This document shows, in pieces, positions 3,804 to 18,288 of a DNA stretch of 64,000 nt. Position 1 is the first letter of the stretch. Every line of letters begins with the position of its first letter. The position numbers and the translations under genes were made by a program. The stretch is from Pararhodobacter aggregans. GTDB lineage: Bacteria; Pseudomonadota; Alphaproteobacteria; Rhodobacterales; Rhodobacteraceae. The notes below the pieces were generated by a model, which was given only the letters and a program-made list of their open reading frames with translations, was not told where the DNA came from and did no database searches. Location of the stretch: the NCBI RefSeq assembly GCF_003075525.1, contig NZ_QDDR01000004.1:124001-188000 (forward strand), in the 5' to 3' direction.

Positions 3804-4262
3804 GTGAGCACGAATCTCTATGACCTTCCCGGTCACCGGATCCGGCGGGTCAACCAGATCATCGTTGCGCGCTTTACCGAACGGTGCCAGGCGACGGGCA
3901 TCACCCCGGTGCAATACGCGGCGATGATGGCGATCCGCCACGAGGGCGCGAATGACGCGACGCAGATCTCGGCGATGATCGGCTTTGACCGGGCGACGCT
4001 GGGCAGCGTGCTGGACCGGCTGGAAAAGCGCGGCCTGATCGTGCGCGGGGGCCATCCGACCGACAGGCGGGTCAAGGTGATTTCGCTGACGCCCGCCGGA
4101 CACCTGGCGCTGGACGAGGTGCATCCGCTGGTGCTGGCCAGCCAGGGCGATTTCATGTCGCTGCTCGAGCCCGATGAACAGGGGCAATTGATGCGGCTTC
4201 TGGACAAGATCATCCGCAAATCCGAGCATTTTTCGGGCCCTGCGGGCGACCCAGAGGCATAG
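3804..4262 (+). CDS. MarR-family transcriptional regulator
   Basis: A 152-residue winged-helix protein of normal MarR length. The recognition helix region is DATQISAMIGFDRATLGSVLDRLEKRGLIVRG, and the wing contains HPTDRRVKVISLTPAG. The GTG start at 3804 has a GGAGGAG site five bases before it. It is transcribed away from the Rieske demethylase operon with the palindrome at 3660-3680 in between, so it most likely represses that operon and itself until an aromatic ligand (such as vanillate, ferulate or a related acid) releases it. The ligand is inference; the family is clear. Confidence 0.9.
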   Translation: MSTNLYDLPGHRIRRVNQIIVARFTERCQATGITPVQYAAMMAIRHEGANDATQISAMIGFDRATLGSVLDRLEKRGLIVRGGHPTDRRVKVISLTPAGHLALDEVHPLVLASQGDFMSLLEPDEQGQLMRLLDKIIRKSEHFSGPAGDPEA

Positions 4263-4430: not shown

Positions 4431-5159
4431 ATGGCGAAATCTCCGGCGACCGGCCCGCGGAGCCGCGACAAGGGGCAGAAAGCCGCGCCCGAATTGTCCA
4501 AGACCCAGATCGTGGAGACCGCGCTGCGGCTGATCGACGAGGAGGGATTGCAGGGCTTCTCGGTCCGCAGCGTCGCCAAGGCGCTCGGCTGCTATCCCAC
4601 AGCGATCTACTGGTACACGCCAAGCCGCCATTTCCTGATCGCCGAGATCGTCACGATCATCCTGCGCGACGTGGTCCCCACCGCCGATCTCGGGTGGCAG
4701 GACTGGCTGCGCGCGCTCTTCACCCGCTACCGGACCGCGATCGCCCGTCACCCCAACGCCGCCCCGCTGATCGGCGTGAACCTCGTCTCGAACGCCTCGG
4801 TCGATGTCGATCTGCTGGAGGGGTTGCTGGCCAAGCTCCACGAGGCGGGGTTCCGGGACGAGGGCCTGATCGACGCCTATAACGCGGTTGTCGGTGCCAT
4901 GGTCGGCTTCACCACGCAGGAATTTGCCATGGAGCCGCCCGATGCCGACGACCTTCAGGGCTATCTGACCGGCTTTCCCGCCAAGATCGACGCCGCCCGC
5001 CATCCGATGCTCGCGCGGATGGCGGGGCCGATGATGGGTCGGTCCTTCATCCTGCGCTGGCAGAACGGCGCAACCCGGCCGATGGACGGCGCCTTCGCGC
5101 TTTATGTCGACGCTTTCGTTGCGGGGCTCGAAGCCCTCCTCCGTCGCGCTGAGCGCTGA
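4431..5159 (+). CDS. TetR-family transcriptional regulator
   Basis: A 242-residue TetR-type repressor. The N-terminal helix-turn-helix is at about residues 35-70 (FSVRSVAKALGCYPTAIYWYTPSR), followed by an all-helical ligand domain. The ATG at 4431 is preferred over an in-frame upstream start because the homologous fold begins here; the upstream region is proline-rich and low in support. It lies directly upstream of the operator array at 5238-5294 and the aminotransferase-TRAP-hydrolase operon, which it probably controls. It is clearly related to the TetR protein at 17375-18121, sharing the layout of the ligand domain (for example AAPLIG..L.SN and GFTTQEFA against APLLG..LKSN and GFVTMEFA). 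Confidence 0.88.
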   Translation: MAKSPATGPRSRDKGQKAAPELSKTQIVETALRLIDEEGLQGFSVRSVAKALGCYPTAIYWYTPSRHFLIAEIVTIILRDVVPTADLGWQDWLRALFTRYRTAIARHPNAAPLIGVNLVSNASVDVDLLEGLLAKLHEAGFRDEGLIDAYNAVVGAMVGFTTQEFAMEPPDADDLQGYLTGFPAKIDAARHPMLARMAGPMMGRSFILRWQNGATRPMDGAFALYVDAFVAGLEALLRRAER

Positions 5160-5237
5160 AATTCCCTGATTTGCACCGGGTTTCCCACCCGGTCCGCCTC
5201 AAGCCGCCGCTCCTCAGAGAGCCGTGGCCGGGATTTC

Positions 5238-5294
5238 TTGTCCGCCGTACAATATTTCTTGTACGGCGGACAATGATCATTGTACGGTGAACAA
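5238..5294. promoter_or_regulatory. Three-copy 15-bp operator array, exact 21-bp period
   Basis: Three 15-base sites start at 5238, 5259 and 5280. The first (TTGTCCGCCGTACAA) is the exact reverse complement of the second (TTGTACGGCGGACAA). The third (TTGTACGGTGAACAA) differs from the second at two positions. The spacers are six bases each, so the period is 21 bases, two turns of DNA, placing all three on one face. It is between the tetR gene and the aminotransferase start at 5353. Each site is itself a near-palindrome, as TetR operators are. TetR binding here is inferred. Confidence 0.75.
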
Positions 5295-5352
5295 GAGAGG
5301 TGATTCCAGCGCGCCTGCCGCGCCCCGCCGCAAGAGACAGAAGGACCATGCC

Positions 5353-6723
5353 ATGACCGCCACCGAGAGCCCCTTTTCCGAACGCGGCGGCCCGATTCAG
5401 GTCTTCTATGCACCGCTCGATGCGACGCGGCGGCCGATGATCTCGCATGCCGAGGGGATCTACATGTGGGACACCGCCGGCAAGCGCTATCTCGACGCGA
5501 CCTCGGGCCCTGTGGTCAGCAACATCGGGCACGGCAACAAGGCGGTGCTGGCGGCGATGGCGGAACAGGCGGGCAAGGTCTGCTACGCCTCGCGCGCGCT
5601 TTTCGAGAACGAGGCGAACATCGCCCTGGCCGAGCGCGTGGCCGGGCTGGCCGGGCCGGGGTTCGAGCGGGTCTTCGTCGTCTCGGGCGGGTCCGAGGCG
5701 ACCGAGGCCGCGATCAAGCTCGCCCGCCAATACGCCGTGGCGAAGGGCGAGGCCGGGCGCTGGAAGGTGCTGGCCCGCAACCCGGGCTATCATGGCGCGA
5801 CGCTGGGCGCGGCCGCCGTCACCGGCGACCCCGAGACGGATGCGGTCTTCGAGCCGGTGATGCGGATCATGCCCCGGGTGCCGGCGCCCTTCACCTATCG
5901 CACGCCGGGCAACATCGACGCCGACACCCATGCCCGCGACTGCGCGCAGGCGCTGGAGACGGCGATCCTTGAGGAAGGGCCCGACAGCGTTCTGGCCTTC
6001 ATCATGGAACCCGTGGGCGGGCTTGCCACCGGCGCGCTGGTGGCGCCGGATCATTATTACACTGCCGTGCGCGAGATCTGCACGCGCCATGGCGTCCTTC
6101 TGATCTTCGACGAGGTGATGAGCGGCGCAGGACGCACCGGCCGGTTTCTGGCGGCCGAACACTGGCCCGATGCGCGCCCGGATATGGTGACACTGGCCAA
6201 GGGCGTGGCTGCTGGCTACACGCCACTCGGCATGGTGCTGGCCTCGCGCGGGATGGTGCAGACGGTGGTTGACGCCGGTGGCTTCATGCATGGCCACACC
6301 TACAGCGCCAACCCCCTCTCCTGCGCCATCGGCGATGCGGTGCTGCGCGAGGTGATGGAGAACGACCTGATCGGCAATGCCGCGCGGATGGGCGCCCTTC
6401 TGGGCGAACGGCTGCAGGCGCTCGCGGCGCAATCGGGCATTGTCGGCGACGTGCGGGGCCTCGGCCTGCTGCGCGCCATCGAGATCGTCGCCGACAAGAC
6501 GACCAAGACCCCGTTCCCGCCGTCGCGGAAGACCATCGCCCGCATCGTGCAGATCGGGCTTGAAAAGGGGCTGTTGCTCTATTCGCGCAGCACCGCGGGC
6601 GGGCGCTATGGCGAATGGCTGATGATGACGCCGCCGCTGACCCTGACCGAGCCGCAGCTCGACGAGATGATGGCGCTCCTGACCGAGGTCCTGAGCACCT
6701 TCGAGGCCGAGGCACGCGGCTGA
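5353..6723 (+). CDS. Class III PLP-dependent aminotransferase
   Basis: Omega-type aminotransferase of 456 residues, a usual length for the class. It shows the cofactor-binding VSGGSEATEAAIKLARQY segment, the FDEVMSGAGRTG motif with the pyridine-binding aspartate, and the Schiff-base lysine in DMVTLAKGVAAGY. The ATG at 5353 was chosen because the residues upstream are encoded by the operator array. It heads an operon with a TRAP importer and an M20 amidohydrolase, suggesting use of an imported amine or N-acylated amino compound: the hydrolase frees the amine, this enzyme removes the amino group. The exact amino donor cannot be read from sequence. Confidence 0.9.
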   Translation: MTATESPFSERGGPIQVFYAPLDATRRPMISHAEGIYMWDTAGKRYLDATSGPVVSNIGHGNKAVLAAMAEQAGKVCYASRALFENEANIALAERVAGLAGPGFERVFVVSGGSEATEAAIKLARQYAVAKGEAGRWKVLARNPGYHGATLGAAAVTGDPETDAVFEPVMRIMPRVPAPFTYRTPGNIDADTHARDCAQALETAILEEGPDSVLAFIMEPVGGLATGALVAPDHYYTAVREICTRHGVLLIFDEVMSGAGRTGRFLAAEHWPDARPDMVTLAKGVAAGYTPLGMVLASRGMVQTVVDAGGFMHGHTYSANPLSCAIGDAVLREVMENDLIGNAARMGALLGERLQALAAQSGIVGDVRGLGLLRAIEIVADKTTKTPFPPSRKTIARIVQIGLEKGLLLYSRSTAGGRYGEWLMMTPPLTLTEPQLDEMMALLTEVLSTFEAEARG

Positions 6724-6766: not shown

Positions 6767-6804
6767 CCACCCCTGACCGACACCCACCAACAAGGGATGA
6801 TCCC

Positions 6805-7812
6805 ATGACCAAGCCTCTTTCGTTCCGGTCCCTCGCCGCGGCGGGCGCGATCCTGTCCTGCGCCGCCCCGGCGATGGCCGACTCGCTGCGCTTCTCGCAT
6901 TTCCTGCCGCCGGGCCATTACTTCGACAACGACGTCCGCGCCTGGGGCGAGGCGCTGGCCGAGGCCTCGGGCGGCGAGCTGACGTTGCAGGTCTTCCCCG
7001 CCGGCCAGATGGGCGCACCCGCCGATCACTACGCCATGGCCCGTGACGGGATCGTCGATGTGGCCTGGGTCAATTTCGGCTACACGCCCGGCGCCTTCCC
7101 CATCGCCGACCTGATCGACCTGCCCTATTCGCTGGAGGTCGACCGCGCCGCGGCCTCGACCGCGGTGCACAATTGGTACAGCGCCTATGCCGCGCAAGAG
7201 ATGCCGGACGTGCATTTCTGCCTCGCCCATGTCGGCGCGCCGGGCGCGCTGCATTCGGCCCAGCCCATCGCGCTGCCCTCGGATGTGGCGGGCCTGCAGG
7301 TCCGCCCGGCCAGCGGCGCCATGGCACGCTTCATCGCCGATCTGGGGGGGTCCGCGGTGCAGGTGCCCGCGACCGAGGCCCGCCAGGCCATCGAGCGCGG
7401 CATCGCCAATGCAATCACCTTCCCCTGGGGCTCGATCGACTTCTTCGGCATCTCGGACGCCGTGCCCTATCACATCGCCGACACGCTCTATTTCGTGGGC
7501 GCGGGCATCGTCATCAACAAGGCCCGCTACGAGAGCCTCTCGCCCGAGATGCGGGCGGCACTGGACAGCGTCTGCACGGCGGAATGGGCGGTCAACGTCG
7601 GCGCCAGCTGGGTCGAATTCGAGGATGCCGGCCGTCAGGTGCTGGCCGACATGGGCCACACGATCCACGACCTGACCCCCTTGGAACTGGCGGCCTGGCA
7701 CGAGGCCGCGCAGCCCTCCTATGACCGCTGGGCGGCGGCGATGACGGCAGCGGGGCTCGATCCCGTGGCGATCCGCGCCGAGCTGGACGCGGCGGTCGCG
7801 GCGGCGCAGTGA
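6805..7812 (+). CDS. TRAP transporter substrate-binding protein (DctP family)
   Basis: Periplasmic receptor of 335 residues. The signal peptide is MTKPLSFRSLAAAGAILSCA with cleavage near PAMA/DS, followed by the DctP core (LRFSHFLPPGHYFDNDV, LTLQVFPAGQMGAPADHYAM, VDVAWVNFGYTPG). The ATG at 6805 follows an AAGGGATG-type ribosome site. It is the second gene of the operon and its stop overlaps the dctQ start by one base. The neighbouring aminotransferase and M20 hydrolase suggest an amino or N-acylamino substrate, by inference only. Confidence 0.93.
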   Translation: MTKPLSFRSLAAAGAILSCAAPAMADSLRFSHFLPPGHYFDNDVRAWGEALAEASGGELTLQVFPAGQMGAPADHYAMARDGIVDVAWVNFGYTPGAFPIADLIDLPYSLEVDRAAASTAVHNWYSAYAAQEMPDVHFCLAHVGAPGALHSAQPIALPSDVAGLQVRPASGAMARFIADLGGSAVQVPATEARQAIERGIANAITFPWGSIDFFGISDAVPYHIADTLYFVGAGIVINKARYESLSPEMRAALDSVCTAEWAVNVGASWVEFEDAGRQVLADMGHTIHDLTPLELAAWHEAAQPSYDRWAAAMTAAGLDPVAIRAELDAAVAAAQ

Positions 7813-8276
7813 TGGACCGCTTCCTGCGCGCGGTCGAGGTCGCGGCCAGCCTCATGCTGGGGGTGGTCACGCTGATTACCTTCGTCAACGTGGTGCTGCG
7901 CTACGGGTTCAACAGCGCGCTGATGGACAGTTTCGACCTGACGCGCATGGCGCAGGGTCTGGCGCTGGCCTGGGGTATCGCGGTGGCTACCCACCGGCGC
8001 GAGCACATCACCATCGACGGGCTCTGGGGCCTGATGGGACCGCGCGGCAAGCGGATGATGGACGCGGTCGCGCGTCTCATCACCGCGCTCTTCCTGCTGG
8101 GCCTGACGCTGGCCATGGCGCAGCGCGCGGCGCGCAACATGGCGGGCAACCTGTCCACGGCCGAGCTGGGCCTGCAGATCTGGGGCTTTCACGCGGCGAT
8201 GACTCTGGGCATCGCGCTGGCGGGTGTCGCCGCCCTTCTGGGCCTCCGGTCGCAGCGCAAGCGGCCGGTTGCCTGA
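7812..8276 (+). CDS. TRAP transporter small permease (DctQ)
   Basis: Four-helix inner-membrane subunit of 154 residues. Helices are visible at VAASLMLGVVTLITFVNVVL, GLALAWGIAVA, LITALFLLGLTLAMA and AMTLGIALAGVAALLGL, with the usual conserved THRREHITID segment between helices 2 and 3. The ATG at 7812 overlaps the dctP stop by one base, which implies translational coupling; an in-frame GTG one codon earlier is the alternative. It pairs with the dctM at 8328. Confidence 0.92.
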   Translation: MDRFLRAVEVAASLMLGVVTLITFVNVVLRYGFNSALMDSFDLTRMAQGLALAWGIAVATHRREHITIDGLWGLMGPRGKRMMDAVARLITALFLLGLTLAMAQRAARNMAGNLSTAELGLQIWGFHAAMTLGIALAGVAALLGLRSQRKRPVA

Positions 8277-8283
8277 CGCCTTC

Positions 8284-8307
8284 CGCCGCCCCGACCCGGG
8301 GGCGGCG
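8284..8307 (+). other. Strong hairpin between dctQ and dctM
   Basis: Perfect nine-base arms CGCCGCCCC and GGGGCGGCG around the loop GACCCG, inside the 51-base gap between dctQ and dctM. No T-run follows. It may lower dctM expression or protect the upstream message, giving more receptor than permease. Confidence 0.55.
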
Positions 8308-8327
8308 CTTCGCTTTCTCAAGGAACG

Positions 8328-9623
8328 ATGATGTCGCAGACCGAGATCGCCCTTTCCGGCTTCGCCCTGCTGGTGGTGCTTCTGCTGATCCGGGTGCCGG
8401 TCGGCGTGGCCATGGCGATTGCCGGTGTCGCCGGGTTCTCGCTGGTGGTGGGTATCGACCCCGCGATCAGCATGCTGAGCCAGGTCGCCTTCAATTCGCT
8501 GACCGCCTATGAATTCTCCATCATTCCGATGTTCATCCTGATGGGCACCTTCGCCGCCCGCAGCGACCTCAGCCTGGAGATGTTCCGCGCCAGCCAGGCC
8601 TGGCTGGGGCGCTTCCGGGGCGGAATGGCCTATTCGGCGCTGGTCGCCTCGGCCGGGTTCGCCGCGGTCAACGGCTCATCTATGGCGACGGCGGCGACCA
8701 TGACCCGCGTGGCCCTGCCGGAGATGGAGCGCAACGGCTACGACAGCGGGCTGGCGGCGGGCGTCATCGCCGCGGGCGGCACGCTGGGCATCATGATCCC
8801 GCCCTCGGCCGTCTTCGCGCTCTACGGCTTCATCACCCAGCAGGATGTGGCCGACCTGTTCATGGCCGGGATCCTGCCGGGGTTGCTGGGGCTCGCGCTC
8901 TATGCCTCGGTCATCGTGCTCTATACCCTCGTCCGGCCCGCCAGCCTGCCCGAGGCCGAGGGCAGCAGCTGGGGCCAGAAACTGCGGGCGCTGCGCAGCG
9001 TCTGGGCCATCGCGCTGCTCTTCGCGCTCATCATCGGCGGCATCTATGGCGGGATCTTCACCGTGACCGAGGCCGCCGGGATCGGTGCCTTCGGCGCCTG
9101 GCTGATCGGGGTGCTGCGCGGGCGGCTGGGGCTGCGGACGACGCTCGCCTGCCTCGCCGAGGCGCTGGCGATGAGTGCGGCGATCTTCACGCTGGTGATC
9201 GGCGCGCTGACCTTCGGCTATTTCCTGACCGTGACCGGCACCACCACCGCGCTGATCGGCTGGTTGGCCAACCAACCCGTCGGCCCCTACGGCGTGCTGA
9301 CGCTGATCCTGCTGGGCTATCTGATCCTTGGCGCGGTGATGGACGAACTCGCCATCACGCTGCTCACACTGCCCATCGTCTTTCCGGTCATCGTCTCGCT
9401 GGGGTTCGATCCGATCTGGTTCGGGGTGATCTTCGTGATGACCGTGACGCTGGGCGTGAACACGCCCCCCATCGGCATGAATGTCTTCGTCATCAACTCG
9501 ATGGCGCGTCATATCGGGCTGGGGCGGATCTACCGCGCCGTCATGCCCTTCGTCGGCGTCGATCTGCTGCGCCTGTTGCTGCTGGTGCTGTTCCCCGCCC
9601 TCTCTCTCTGGCTCGTTTCCTGA
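8328..9623 (+). CDS. TRAP transporter large permease (DctM)
   Basis: Large membrane subunit of 431 residues with about twelve helices, forming the translocation channel. Typical DctM features are RVPVGVAMAIAGVAGF at the N-terminus, GGTLGIMIPPSAVFALYG and MDELAITLLTLPIVFP in the helical-hairpin regions, and LGVNTPPIGMNVFVI near the end. Two adjacent ATG codons at 8328 and 8331 could serve as start, preceded by AAGGAA. It is part of the aminotransferase-dctPQM-hydrolase operon; the next gene begins 16 bases downstream. Confidence 0.95.
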   Translation: MMSQTEIALSGFALLVVLLLIRVPVGVAMAIAGVAGFSLVVGIDPAISMLSQVAFNSLTAYEFSIIPMFILMGTFAARSDLSLEMFRASQAWLGRFRGGMAYSALVASAGFAAVNGSSMATAATMTRVALPEMERNGYDSGLAAGVIAAGGTLGIMIPPSAVFALYGFITQQDVADLFMAGILPGLLGLALYASVIVLYTLVRPASLPEAEGSSWGQKLRALRSVWAIALLFALIIGGIYGGIFTVTEAAGIGAFGAWLIGVLRGRLGLRTTLACLAEALAMSAAIFTLVIGALTFGYFLTVTGTTTALIGWLANQPVGPYGVLTLILLGYLILGAVMDELAITLLTLPIVFPVIVSLGFDPIWFGVIFVMTVTLGVNTPPIGMNVFVINSMARHIGLGRIYRAVMPFVGVDLLRLLLLVLFPALSLWLVS

Positions 9624-9639: not shown

Positions 9640-10932
9640 ATGTCGCCTTCCCTTCCCGAAACCCTGACCGAGCGCCTCGACCGCCGCGCCGACGAGATTT
9701 TCGCGCGGATGATCGCCTGGCGGCGGGACTTCCACGCCCATCCCGAACTGGGCAATCAGGAAGTCCGCACCGCGGGCATCGTCGCCGATCACCTCGAACG
9801 GCTGGGTTTCGATGAGGTGCGGCGCAATCTTGGCGGCAGCACCGGGGTGATCGGCATCCTGAAGGGCGGCCAGCCCGGCCCCTGCGTGGCGCTCCGCGCG
9901 GATATGGACGCGCTCCCTGTCCGCGAGGCGACGGGGCTCGACTTCGCCTCGGTCAAGACCGGGGTCTGGGGTGGCGAGACGGTGCCGGTCATGCATGCCT
10001 GCGGCCATGATGCGCATACGGCGGTGCAGATGGCGGTGGCCGAGATCCTGGCCGCCGAGCGCGACGCGCTGAGGGGCAGCGTGATGCTGGTCTTCCAGCC
10101 CGCCGAGGAAGGCCCGGCGCCGGATTGGCAGGGGCTGTCGGGCGCCGCGCGGCTGGTGGCGGACGGCGAATTCGACGACCCGACGCCCGACGCCTTCTTC
10201 TGCTTCCACGTCCTGCAGGACGAACGCCCCGGCACGGCGGGCGAGATACGGGTGCATGAGGGCGACGGCACCTATGCGATGAACCTGCTGCGGATCAGGA
10301 TCCACGGGCGGGGCGGCCACGGCGCCTTTCCCTGGCGCACCGTCGATCCGCTGCTGATCGGGGCGCAGATCCTGACCGCCCTGCAGGCGATCCCGGCCAA
10401 GAACGTCAACGTCAACGAGAATGACGTCACCCTGTCGATCGGCATCTTCAAGGGCGGCACCAAGTTCAACGTGATCCCCGAAACCGCCGAGATGGAAGGC
10501 GCGCTGCGCTTCACCGATCCCGCCACCGGCGCCTATCTGGAAAGCCGGGTCGAGGCCGTCTGCCGCGGCATCGCCGAGGCGGCGGGCGGGCGGGCCGAGG
10601 TCGATTGGTACATGCGCGTGCCGCTGGTGCGCAACGATCCGGCGCTGGTGCGGCGGATGCGGCCCTCGCTCGACCGTGCGGCCCCGGTGGATAGGCCGGT
10701 GGTCGAGGTCGAGAACTGCTTTCTGGACGATGTGTCGAACTTCGCGGCCATCGCGCCCTTGATGTTCTTCACCGTGGGCGTGGGTCTGGACGAGGACGAC
10801 GCCGCGCGGTCGGGCTTCCACCACGAGCCGACCTTCCGGGTCAACGAGGCGGGGCTGAAGACCGCGCTCAGGGCGATGGTCAACGTCACCTTCGATTACG
10901 CCGAGGCGTCGCTGAAGAACGACCCGGGCTGA
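9640..10932 (+). CDS. M20 family amidohydrolase (hippurate/N-acyl amino acid hydrolase type)
   Basis: Zinc or manganese hydrolase of 430 residues that cleaves the amide bond of N-acyl amino acids. It shows the family start FHAHPELGNQEVRTA, the ligand segments RADMDALPV and MHACGHDAHTA, and FQPAEEGP with the catalytic and bridging glutamates. The ATG at 9640 lies 16 bases after dctM. It is the last gene of the tetR-linked operon, ending two bases before a convergent gene. With a class III aminotransferase and a TRAP importer it makes a plausible import-hydrolyse-transaminate unit for an acylated amine. Confidence 0.9.
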   Translation: MSPSLPETLTERLDRRADEIFARMIAWRRDFHAHPELGNQEVRTAGIVADHLERLGFDEVRRNLGGSTGVIGILKGGQPGPCVALRADMDALPVREATGLDFASVKTGVWGGETVPVMHACGHDAHTAVQMAVAEILAAERDALRGSVMLVFQPAEEGPAPDWQGLSGAARLVADGEFDDPTPDAFFCFHVLQDERPGTAGEIRVHEGDGTYAMNLLRIRIHGRGGHGAFPWRTVDPLLIGAQILTALQAIPAKNVNVNENDVTLSIGIFKGGTKFNVIPETAEMEGALRFTDPATGAYLESRVEAVCRGIAEAAGGRAEVDWYMRVPLVRNDPALVRRMRPSLDRAAPVDRPVVEVENCFLDDVSNFAAIAPLMFFTVGVGLDEDDAARSGFHHEPTFRVNEAGLKTALRAMVNVTFDYAEASLKNDPG

Positions 10933-17374: not shown

Positions 17375-18121
17375 TCAGGGGTTGGGGGATTGCCTCGGCG
17401 CGCGCGCCGAGAGGCCTTCGATCAGCAGATCGAGCAGAAAGTCAAAGCTGCTGGCGTAAGAGACGTGTTTGCCGTTCTCCCAGCGCAGAACGAAGATCCG
17501 GTTCATGAAATCGGGCAGTACGGCATGGGTGAAGGGGAAGCGGTCGGCGTCGATCTCGGCCACGCGCCGGGCAAAGAGGGCCTCCCATTCGTTGGCCTTG
17601 TCATCGGGGGCCGGTGCGAATTCCATCGTCACGAAGCCGCAGAGGCCGCCGATCAGCGCGTTGAACGCATCGCGCAGGGCGGAACCGCGATAACCCGCGT
17701 CATGCAGCGCGGTCAGCACCGCCTCGACCAGGGCGAGGTTGGCGACGCCGTTCGATTTCAGCTGCGCCCCGAGCAGGGGGGCGACATTGGCGTGGTCGCT
17801 GACGGCATCGCGGTAGGACAGGAACACCGTCCGCAGCCGGTCCTGCCAGGGCTTGTCGCGTGGCAGGCTCTGGCTGACCGCGGCGGTGAACCGCGCGGCG
17901 ATCTCGCCGAACAGGTCCTCCTTGGTGCCGCCCACGTGCCAGTAGATGTTGTTCGGCGACACTCCCAGCGCCCGCGCCAACTCGCGCATCGAGAAGGCAT
18001 GCAGGCCCTTCTCGTCGATCTGCGCGATGGCGACATCGACGATCCGTTCCTTGGTCAGTCCGACCGAGGCGGCGCGCCCGCGCAGCCTGCCGTTCTTACT
18101 CTGTGCTGTTGCGTCGCTCAT
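17375..18121 (-). CDS. TetR-family transcriptional regulator
   Basis: A 248-residue repressor with its helix-turn-helix near residues 36-60 (HAFSMRELARALGVSPNNIYWHVGG) and a helical ligand domain. I take the ATG at 18121; a GTG at 18127 and a TTG at 18139 are in frame and the GGGGTGGAG sequence directly before the ATG makes the choice uncertain. It is 31 bases upstream of ridA on the same strand and divergent from the TRAP genes at 18289, so it probably governs both. It is a paralogue of the TetR protein at 4431-5159, and both sit beside a TRAP importer and an aminotransferase. Confidence 0.87.
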   Translation of the reverse strand: MSDATAQSKNGRLRGRAASVGLTKERIVDVAIAQIDEKGLHAFSMRELARALGVSPNNIYWHVGGTKEDLFGEIAARFTAAVSQSLPRDKPWQDRLRTVFLSYRDAVSDHANVAPLLGAQLKSNGVANLALVEAVLTALHDAGYRGSALRDAFNALIGGLCGFVTMEFAPAPDDKANEWEALFARRVAEIDADRFPFTHAVLPDFMNRIFVLRWENGKHVSYASSFDFLLDLLIEGLSARAPRQSPNP

Positions 18122-18288
18122 CTCCACCCCGATGCACAATTACTGGGCATTTTCGAATTATTTCTTGCCAAGGGGCGCTTTCTCCATTCAGTTATAGAAC
18201 ACTGTGCAATTGAAAGATCAACAGAACTCGACACCCGCCGGCGCGATTTTTTCGTCAGCGCCGCCCAAGCAAAACGATAGGGAGCCAA
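18122..18288. promoter_or_regulatory. Divergent promoter region between tetR and TRAP operon
   Basis: An AT-rich 167-base gap. It contains the near-palindrome GTTATAGAAC at about 18193-18202 and ATGCACAATTACTG / CACTGTGCAATTG partial repeats around it, which are candidate TetR sites. The copies are imperfect and unlike the clean array at 5238. A ribosome site GGGAG precedes the GTG start of dctM at 18289. Confidence 0.35.

Follow-up and report, generated by a model that had tools for sequence, protein, structure and literature searches.

Three near-palindromic sites in a candidate TetR operator region upstream of an aminotransferase gene in Pararhodobacter aggregans

Genes and near-palindromic sites at the locus

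The stretch of P. aggregans DNA analysed here, referred to as the window, is 64,000 nucleotides (64 kb) long. Three 15-bp near-palindromes form an intergenic array that separates a tetR-family gene from a class III aminotransferase gene (Table 1). The original prediction, made from the sequence of the window, had placed these sites 21 bp apart from start to start with 6-bp spacers, and the coordinates were confirmed. It had also described the outer two sites as a mirrored pair, which held in part: sites 1 and 3 mirror each other at only 13 of 15 positions, and it is site 2 that mirrors site 1 exactly (15/15). In direct orientation, site 3 repeats site 2 at 13/15 positions. Sites 1 and 2 each have 6 of 7 palindromic pairs and site 3 has 5 of 7.

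Table 1. Features of the locus, with positions numbered from the first letter of the window.
Feature	Position	Strand	Remarks
MarR protein	3804-4262		upstream of tetR
TetR-family regulator (TetR_N + TetR_C_1)	4431..5159	+	proposed repressor of the array; Pfam, fold model
Putative operator site 1	5238..5252	.	TTGTCCGCCGTACAA; exact reverse complement of site 2; counterpart in 6/7 loci including the window
Putative operator site 2 (middle)	5259..5273	.	TTGTACGGCGGACAA; least conserved; counterpart in 4/7 loci including the window
Putative operator site 3	5280..5294	.	TTGTACGGTGAACAA; counterpart in 6/7 loci including the window
GTGATTCC box	5300..5307	+	directly after site 3 in 6/7 orthologous loci including the window; once in the 64-kb window
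Class III aminotransferase	5353..6723	+	first gene of the proposed regulated operon
TRAP solute-binding protein DctP	6805..7812	+	downstream in 5/6 loci (including the window) with downstream DNA covered
TRAP small permease DctQ	7809..8276	+	name from position and synteny
TRAP large permease DctM	8328..9623	+	name from position and synteny
M20-family amidohydrolase	9640..10932	+	end of conserved block

The TetR-family protein carries an N-terminal helix-turn-helix (PF00440, TetR_N; 27.8 bits, cut-off 24) and a C-terminal ligand/dimer domain (PF02909, TetR_C_1; 30.5 bits, cut-off 21). Its predicted model (mean pLDDT 74) matched chains of ActR, class D/H TetR and BioQ, with TM-scores by query length of 0.51-0.60 among the 50 matches listed. 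The best sequence matches among solved structures were to M. smegmatis BioQ (5yek, 5yej and 5xs9); 5yej and 5xs9 carry the name BioQ in the fold-search result. The segment CYPTAIYWYTPSR of the DNA-binding domain was invariant across six aligned TetR orthologs.

The pattern TTGT-N7-ACAA occurred three times in the window, each time in the array, whereas 100 dinucleotide shuffles gave 0.13 on average and never more than 2. Exact matches to TTGTNCGNNGNACAA in the organism's own genome (5.08 Mb, 32 contigs) were confined to the array sites. That the near-palindromes arose by chance, or lie in DNA kept for a hairpin or promoter element, would agree with the AT-richness of the array (GC 0.457 versus 0.669), which it shares with many promoters, and with the result for a looser single-site pattern allowing up to 2 mismatches, which was not significant over the window (15 matches versus 8.4 expected; 6/100 shuffles reached 15). 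Such an origin was nevertheless given next to no probability, as the window contained one set of three similar near-palindromes at equal spacing, against 0/100 shuffles, and sites stand at the same position in the seven orthologous loci described below. The threshold for the triple was 5/7 pairs, relaxed after a 6/7 version gave none in the window, because site 3 has five pairs.

No sigma-70 consensus promoter was detected in positions 5150-5370. By eye, TACAAT, which closes site 1, and TTGTAC within site 3 might act as promoter hexamers; no conserved partner hexamer was seen in the ortholog alignment, and therefore no promoter was placed. The GTGATTCC box may be a promoter or leader element. 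The box is missing at that position in the single-site locus of P. marinus.

Site number and spacing in orthologous loci

The close relatives are records named Pararhodobacter, one Rhodobacter and one Proteobacteria MAG. An ortholog of the TetR protein was found in 6/18 genus genomes (69-100% identity), and the same six carried an ortholog of the aminotransferase (87-100% identity; the next best listed was 54%). Seven orthologous loci were compared, counting the window; the seventh, L033, comes from outside the six genomes. The order tetR-aminotransferase was kept in 7/7 loci, and each has one site or more in the gap between these genes. Lone matches to the exact single-site pattern also occurred elsewhere, including in genus genomes without this TetR.

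The layout of 21+21 bp was found in only 2/7 loci (the window and L030). Two further loci have three sites at 23+21 bp (L033 and L025), two have a pair of sites at 44 bp and nothing that scores as a middle site (L031 and L034), and P. marinus (L032) has one site only, at 6781-6795, which could be assigned neither to site 1 nor to site 3. A period of 21 bp over three sites is therefore not conserved among the orthologs, and the idea that the strict array is a functional need was not upheld. Because the layout varies in this way, the strict phasing was taken to be a local elaboration. In the TetR tree the two pairs of three-site loci fall apart, and a correct tree would imply repeated gain or loss of the third site; the inner forks are weakly supported (81-88% ultrafast bootstrap).

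The regular array is unusual, as the original prediction had stated. The 21-bp two-site pattern, with at most 1 mismatch, was found in 1/290 family genomes, the window's own (the genome of L030 was outside this sample). With at most 2 mismatches it was found in 6/385 class genomes, and a reversed-pattern control gave 4; the five other class genomes were set aside as being at about the control level. Searches of the open-access literature for TetR together with TTGTAC/GTACAA or TTGTTCA/TGAACAA gave no relevant title among the matches listed, and those for TetR with three operator sites, three palindromes or three inverted repeats, or with a same-face spacing of 21 bp found nothing.

One reading of the regularity, which we regard as possible and somewhat short of even odds, is that cooperative, switch-like repression requires three sites in phase, which align the TetR dimers along one helical face as the original prediction had suggested. 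It is consistent with the exact 21+21 bp of the window and L030, with a spacing of 21 bp between sites 2 and 3 in 4/4 three-site loci, and with the inner half-sites GTACAA (site 1) and TTGTAC (site 3), which are identical in 6/6 multi-site loci, the variants lying in the outer halves. Multi-dimer binding is also known for QacR, CgmR, RolR and EthR (PMC9210681), MAB_4384 (PMC5895659) and DarR (PMC10636190), and the array spacing appears compatible with cooperative multi-dimer TetR operators such as those of QacR and EthR. The 23+21 bp, 44 bp and single-site loci all speak against a need for phasing, as does the scarcity of close pairs near distant TetR homologs, where two sites scoring at least 12 within 60 bp of each other were found in 1/18 loci (L019), 26 bp apart. 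At 10.5 bp per turn, sites 21 or 42 bp apart share a helical phase, and a spacing of 23 or 44 bp turns them out of it by about 70 degrees. The latter spacings occur in natural orthologs, so strict phase is not a conserved need; same-face cooperative binding at the array is plausible.

A second reading, also held tentatively, is that small duplications of a 21-bp operator unit produced the regularity as a side effect, the extra sites raising occupancy without helical-face cooperativity. A repeat search found a 21-nt direct repeat that includes flanking sequence (86% identity), site number ranges from one to three among the loci, and the separation of the three-site pairs in the tree would imply recurrent gains or losses. 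This fits less well with the outer sites, which are 42 or 44 bp apart in 6/7 loci, and with the core of site 2, which is an inverted copy of site 1 (15/15) rather than a direct one (12/15), an orientation not given by simple tandem duplication.

The genes around the tetR-aminotransferase pair differ among the loci. TRAP and M20 genes lie downstream of the aminotransferase in the window, L030, L031/L016, L033 and L034, and were not found beside the P. marinus aminotransferase; in L025 the DNA downstream was too short to judge. By tblastn at E 1e-15, genes for MarR and Rieske proteins upstream of tetR were confined to the window and its nearest relative (L022/L030), a comparison in which the upstream DNA of L025 spans just 1.5 kb. 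The closeness of the MarR gene, upstream of the array in those two loci, raised the possibility that another regulator of this kind binds the sites. This is very unlikely, and MarR was rejected as the array binder on the basis of synteny: at E 1e-15 the gene was not found in the other orthologous loci, yet each of the seven has at least one site.

Autoregulation is common in the TetR family. Elsewhere near tetR in the window no site scoring at least 12 was found, the two genes lie in tandem, and the arrangement of an autoregulated tet-type switch was not seen; with no site upstream of tetR, autoregulation is not visible there. A further site was found 169 bp upstream of tetR in L033 (at 5832) and L025 (at 1332), which suggests autoregulation in those loci and not in the window.

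Sites near distant TetR homologs

Fourteen ortholog sites, none of them from the window, were used to build a symmetric weight matrix, which was applied to 14 loci of TetR homologs from plasmids and other genomes (~37-47% identity) and to four more found by profile. The plasmid homologs were 8 (H1, H2, H5, H6, H7, H11, H12 and H13) of the best 20 of 189 matching records; near-duplicates of the Phaeobacter and Vibrio plasmids and those of about 27-32% identity were left out. A site scoring at least 14, outside tetR and within 1.5 kb of it, was found in 13 of these 18 distant loci (L018, L019, L020, L075-L080 and L082-L085) and in 0/23 controls (Fisher p ~5e-7). The cut-off of 14 was chosen after the controls had been seen, and at a score of at least 12, 2/23 controls pass. 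The controls comprised 15 pieces of the window and 8 loci of distant aminotransferase homologs. Eight other loci (L004-L007, L046, L047, L049 and L052) scored 8.1-18.3, with 3/8 at 14 or above, and were not counted among the controls, having been retrieved with the motif itself.

The loci without such a site were L017, L021, L026, L073 and L074; L021 ends 75 bp past tetR and so says nothing about that side. A further six homolog loci, not part of the count, all scored below 14, and with them the result was 13/24. These were four orthologs of a second TetR of the window, from within the genus (L015, L027, L028 and L029; best scores 10.0-12.9), and two remote Pseudofrankia loci (L035 and L036; best scores 1.4 and 5.6). 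Compared with shuffles of the same locus, 10/14 loci tested reached p 0.05, including L074 by way of a site inside tetR. A matching site was thus found near tetR in homologs held out from the matrix and, at the cut-off of 14, in none of the controls, and TTGTWC-N3-GWACAA appears to be the operator of a TetR subfamily. The recurrence of the motif near distant TetR homologs is a further point against MarR as its binder.

Several other observations were made at these loci. The Phaeobacter locus L074 has a site of score 19.4, 3.5 kb from tetR, inside an annotated class III aminotransferase gene; this operator-like site lies 42 bp before an in-frame ATG at 8324 (region 8201-8324). The annotated start of that gene is probably too far upstream, with the ATG at 8324 as the likely true start. 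A Paraburkholderia graminis plasmid (L075) has three near-perfect sites of score 25, at 1066, 3627 and 5871, all of them intergenic: one precedes a class III aminotransferase gene, another a porin gene, and the third lies between genes for an aryldialkylphosphatase and a 3-keto-5-aminohexanoate cleavage enzyme. These three sites likely mark a small regulon.

A stretch resembling TATGTATATAYC lies beside the sites of L077 (2708), L078 (2645), L079 (2716) and L085 (3384, where it is inverted), and may belong to a promoter that they share. Three of these four are rhizobial plasmid loci, and in them the site is upstream of an aminotransferase-tetR pair. The second TetR of the window belongs to the same subfamily (17399-18109, minus strand, 39% identity) and has a near-palindrome, TAGAACACTGTGCAA, upstream at 18195-18209; an identical or almost identical site is found next to its orthologs in L027, L028 and L029.

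Proposed regulation and comparison with known systems

The best explanation for these results, with a probability of roughly 0.85, is that the sites are operators of the adjacent TetR repressor and control the aminotransferase-TRAP transporter-M20 hydrolase operon. The original assignment of the sites to the neighbouring TetR is well supported at the sequence level by synteny, by co-occurrence and by the sites beside distant homologs. We infer binding, repression, an inducer and any cooperativity as follows. Family biology would predict one TetR homodimer per 15-bp site, which is in line with the statement on ~15-bp operators in PMC9210681, and up to three dimers could then cover ~57 bp ahead of the aminotransferase gene. 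The bound dimers would block access of RNA polymerase to the aminotransferase-DctPQM-M20 operon until a pathway metabolite bound TetR and released it from the operators; a natural guess for the inducer is a substrate or product of the aminotransferase/M20 pathway.

The basic operator appears to be common to a subfamily of TetR_C_1 type that spans alpha-, beta- and gammaproteobacteria, where it mostly occurs as isolated sites. The genus appears to have multiplied it to two or three, with the exact 21-bp period so far in P. aggregans and its nearest relative only. Taken together, the comparisons point to a real TetR operator region that was kept across the orthologous loci, with a three-site layout that is lineage-specific.

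TTGTWC-N3-GWACAA is a candidate operator for a TetR subfamily whose members often lie close to aminotransferase genes in several classes of proteobacteria and for which the open-access motif searches gave no described operator. Orthologous promoters with one, two or three operator copies at 21, 23 or 44 bp also form a natural experiment, and the series could show how operator number and helical phase shape repression.

According to PMC9210681, most TetR regulators have operators of ~15 bp bound by one homodimer, and QacR, CgmR, RolR and EthR have longer operators that take more dimers. The operators of QacR, CgmR and RolR are 28-32 bp long and bind two dimers each (PMC9210681). The likeness to the array lies in the TetR family and in operators that take a pair of dimers; the array differs in that its sites are separate, with 6-bp spacers. 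EthR of M. tuberculosis binds as a homo-octamer to a 55-bp operator with long direct repeats (PMC9210681). There, as predicted here from the sites, several TetR-family dimers occupy ~55 bp of DNA, but in place of long direct repeats the array has three distinct 15-bp palindromes that recur every 21 bp.

The actinobacterial BioQ operator was predicted as TGAAC-N3-GTTCA, and in C. glutamicum is TGAAC-N3-GTTAC. Like the array sites, BioQ operators have 5-bp half-sites round a 3-bp centre and are of the single-dimer type. The array differs in its half-site (TGTWC, not TGAAC), in its regulon, and in its occurrence in one to three copies.

A bolder interpretation, which we consider rather unlikely, is that the array is the TetR-family counterpart of a three-operator cooperative switch, built in one genus from a single-operator ancestor, perhaps twice. 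The species would then form a series of one, two and three sites on the same operon, in which the phased form responds more sharply than the unphased. The right operator of phage lambda, OR1-OR2-OR3, has three near-palindromic sites with short spacers before a promoter. As an analogy only, it resembles the array in having three sites of similar size with short spacers, and it differs in its protein family, its divergent promoters and its slightly longer spacing.
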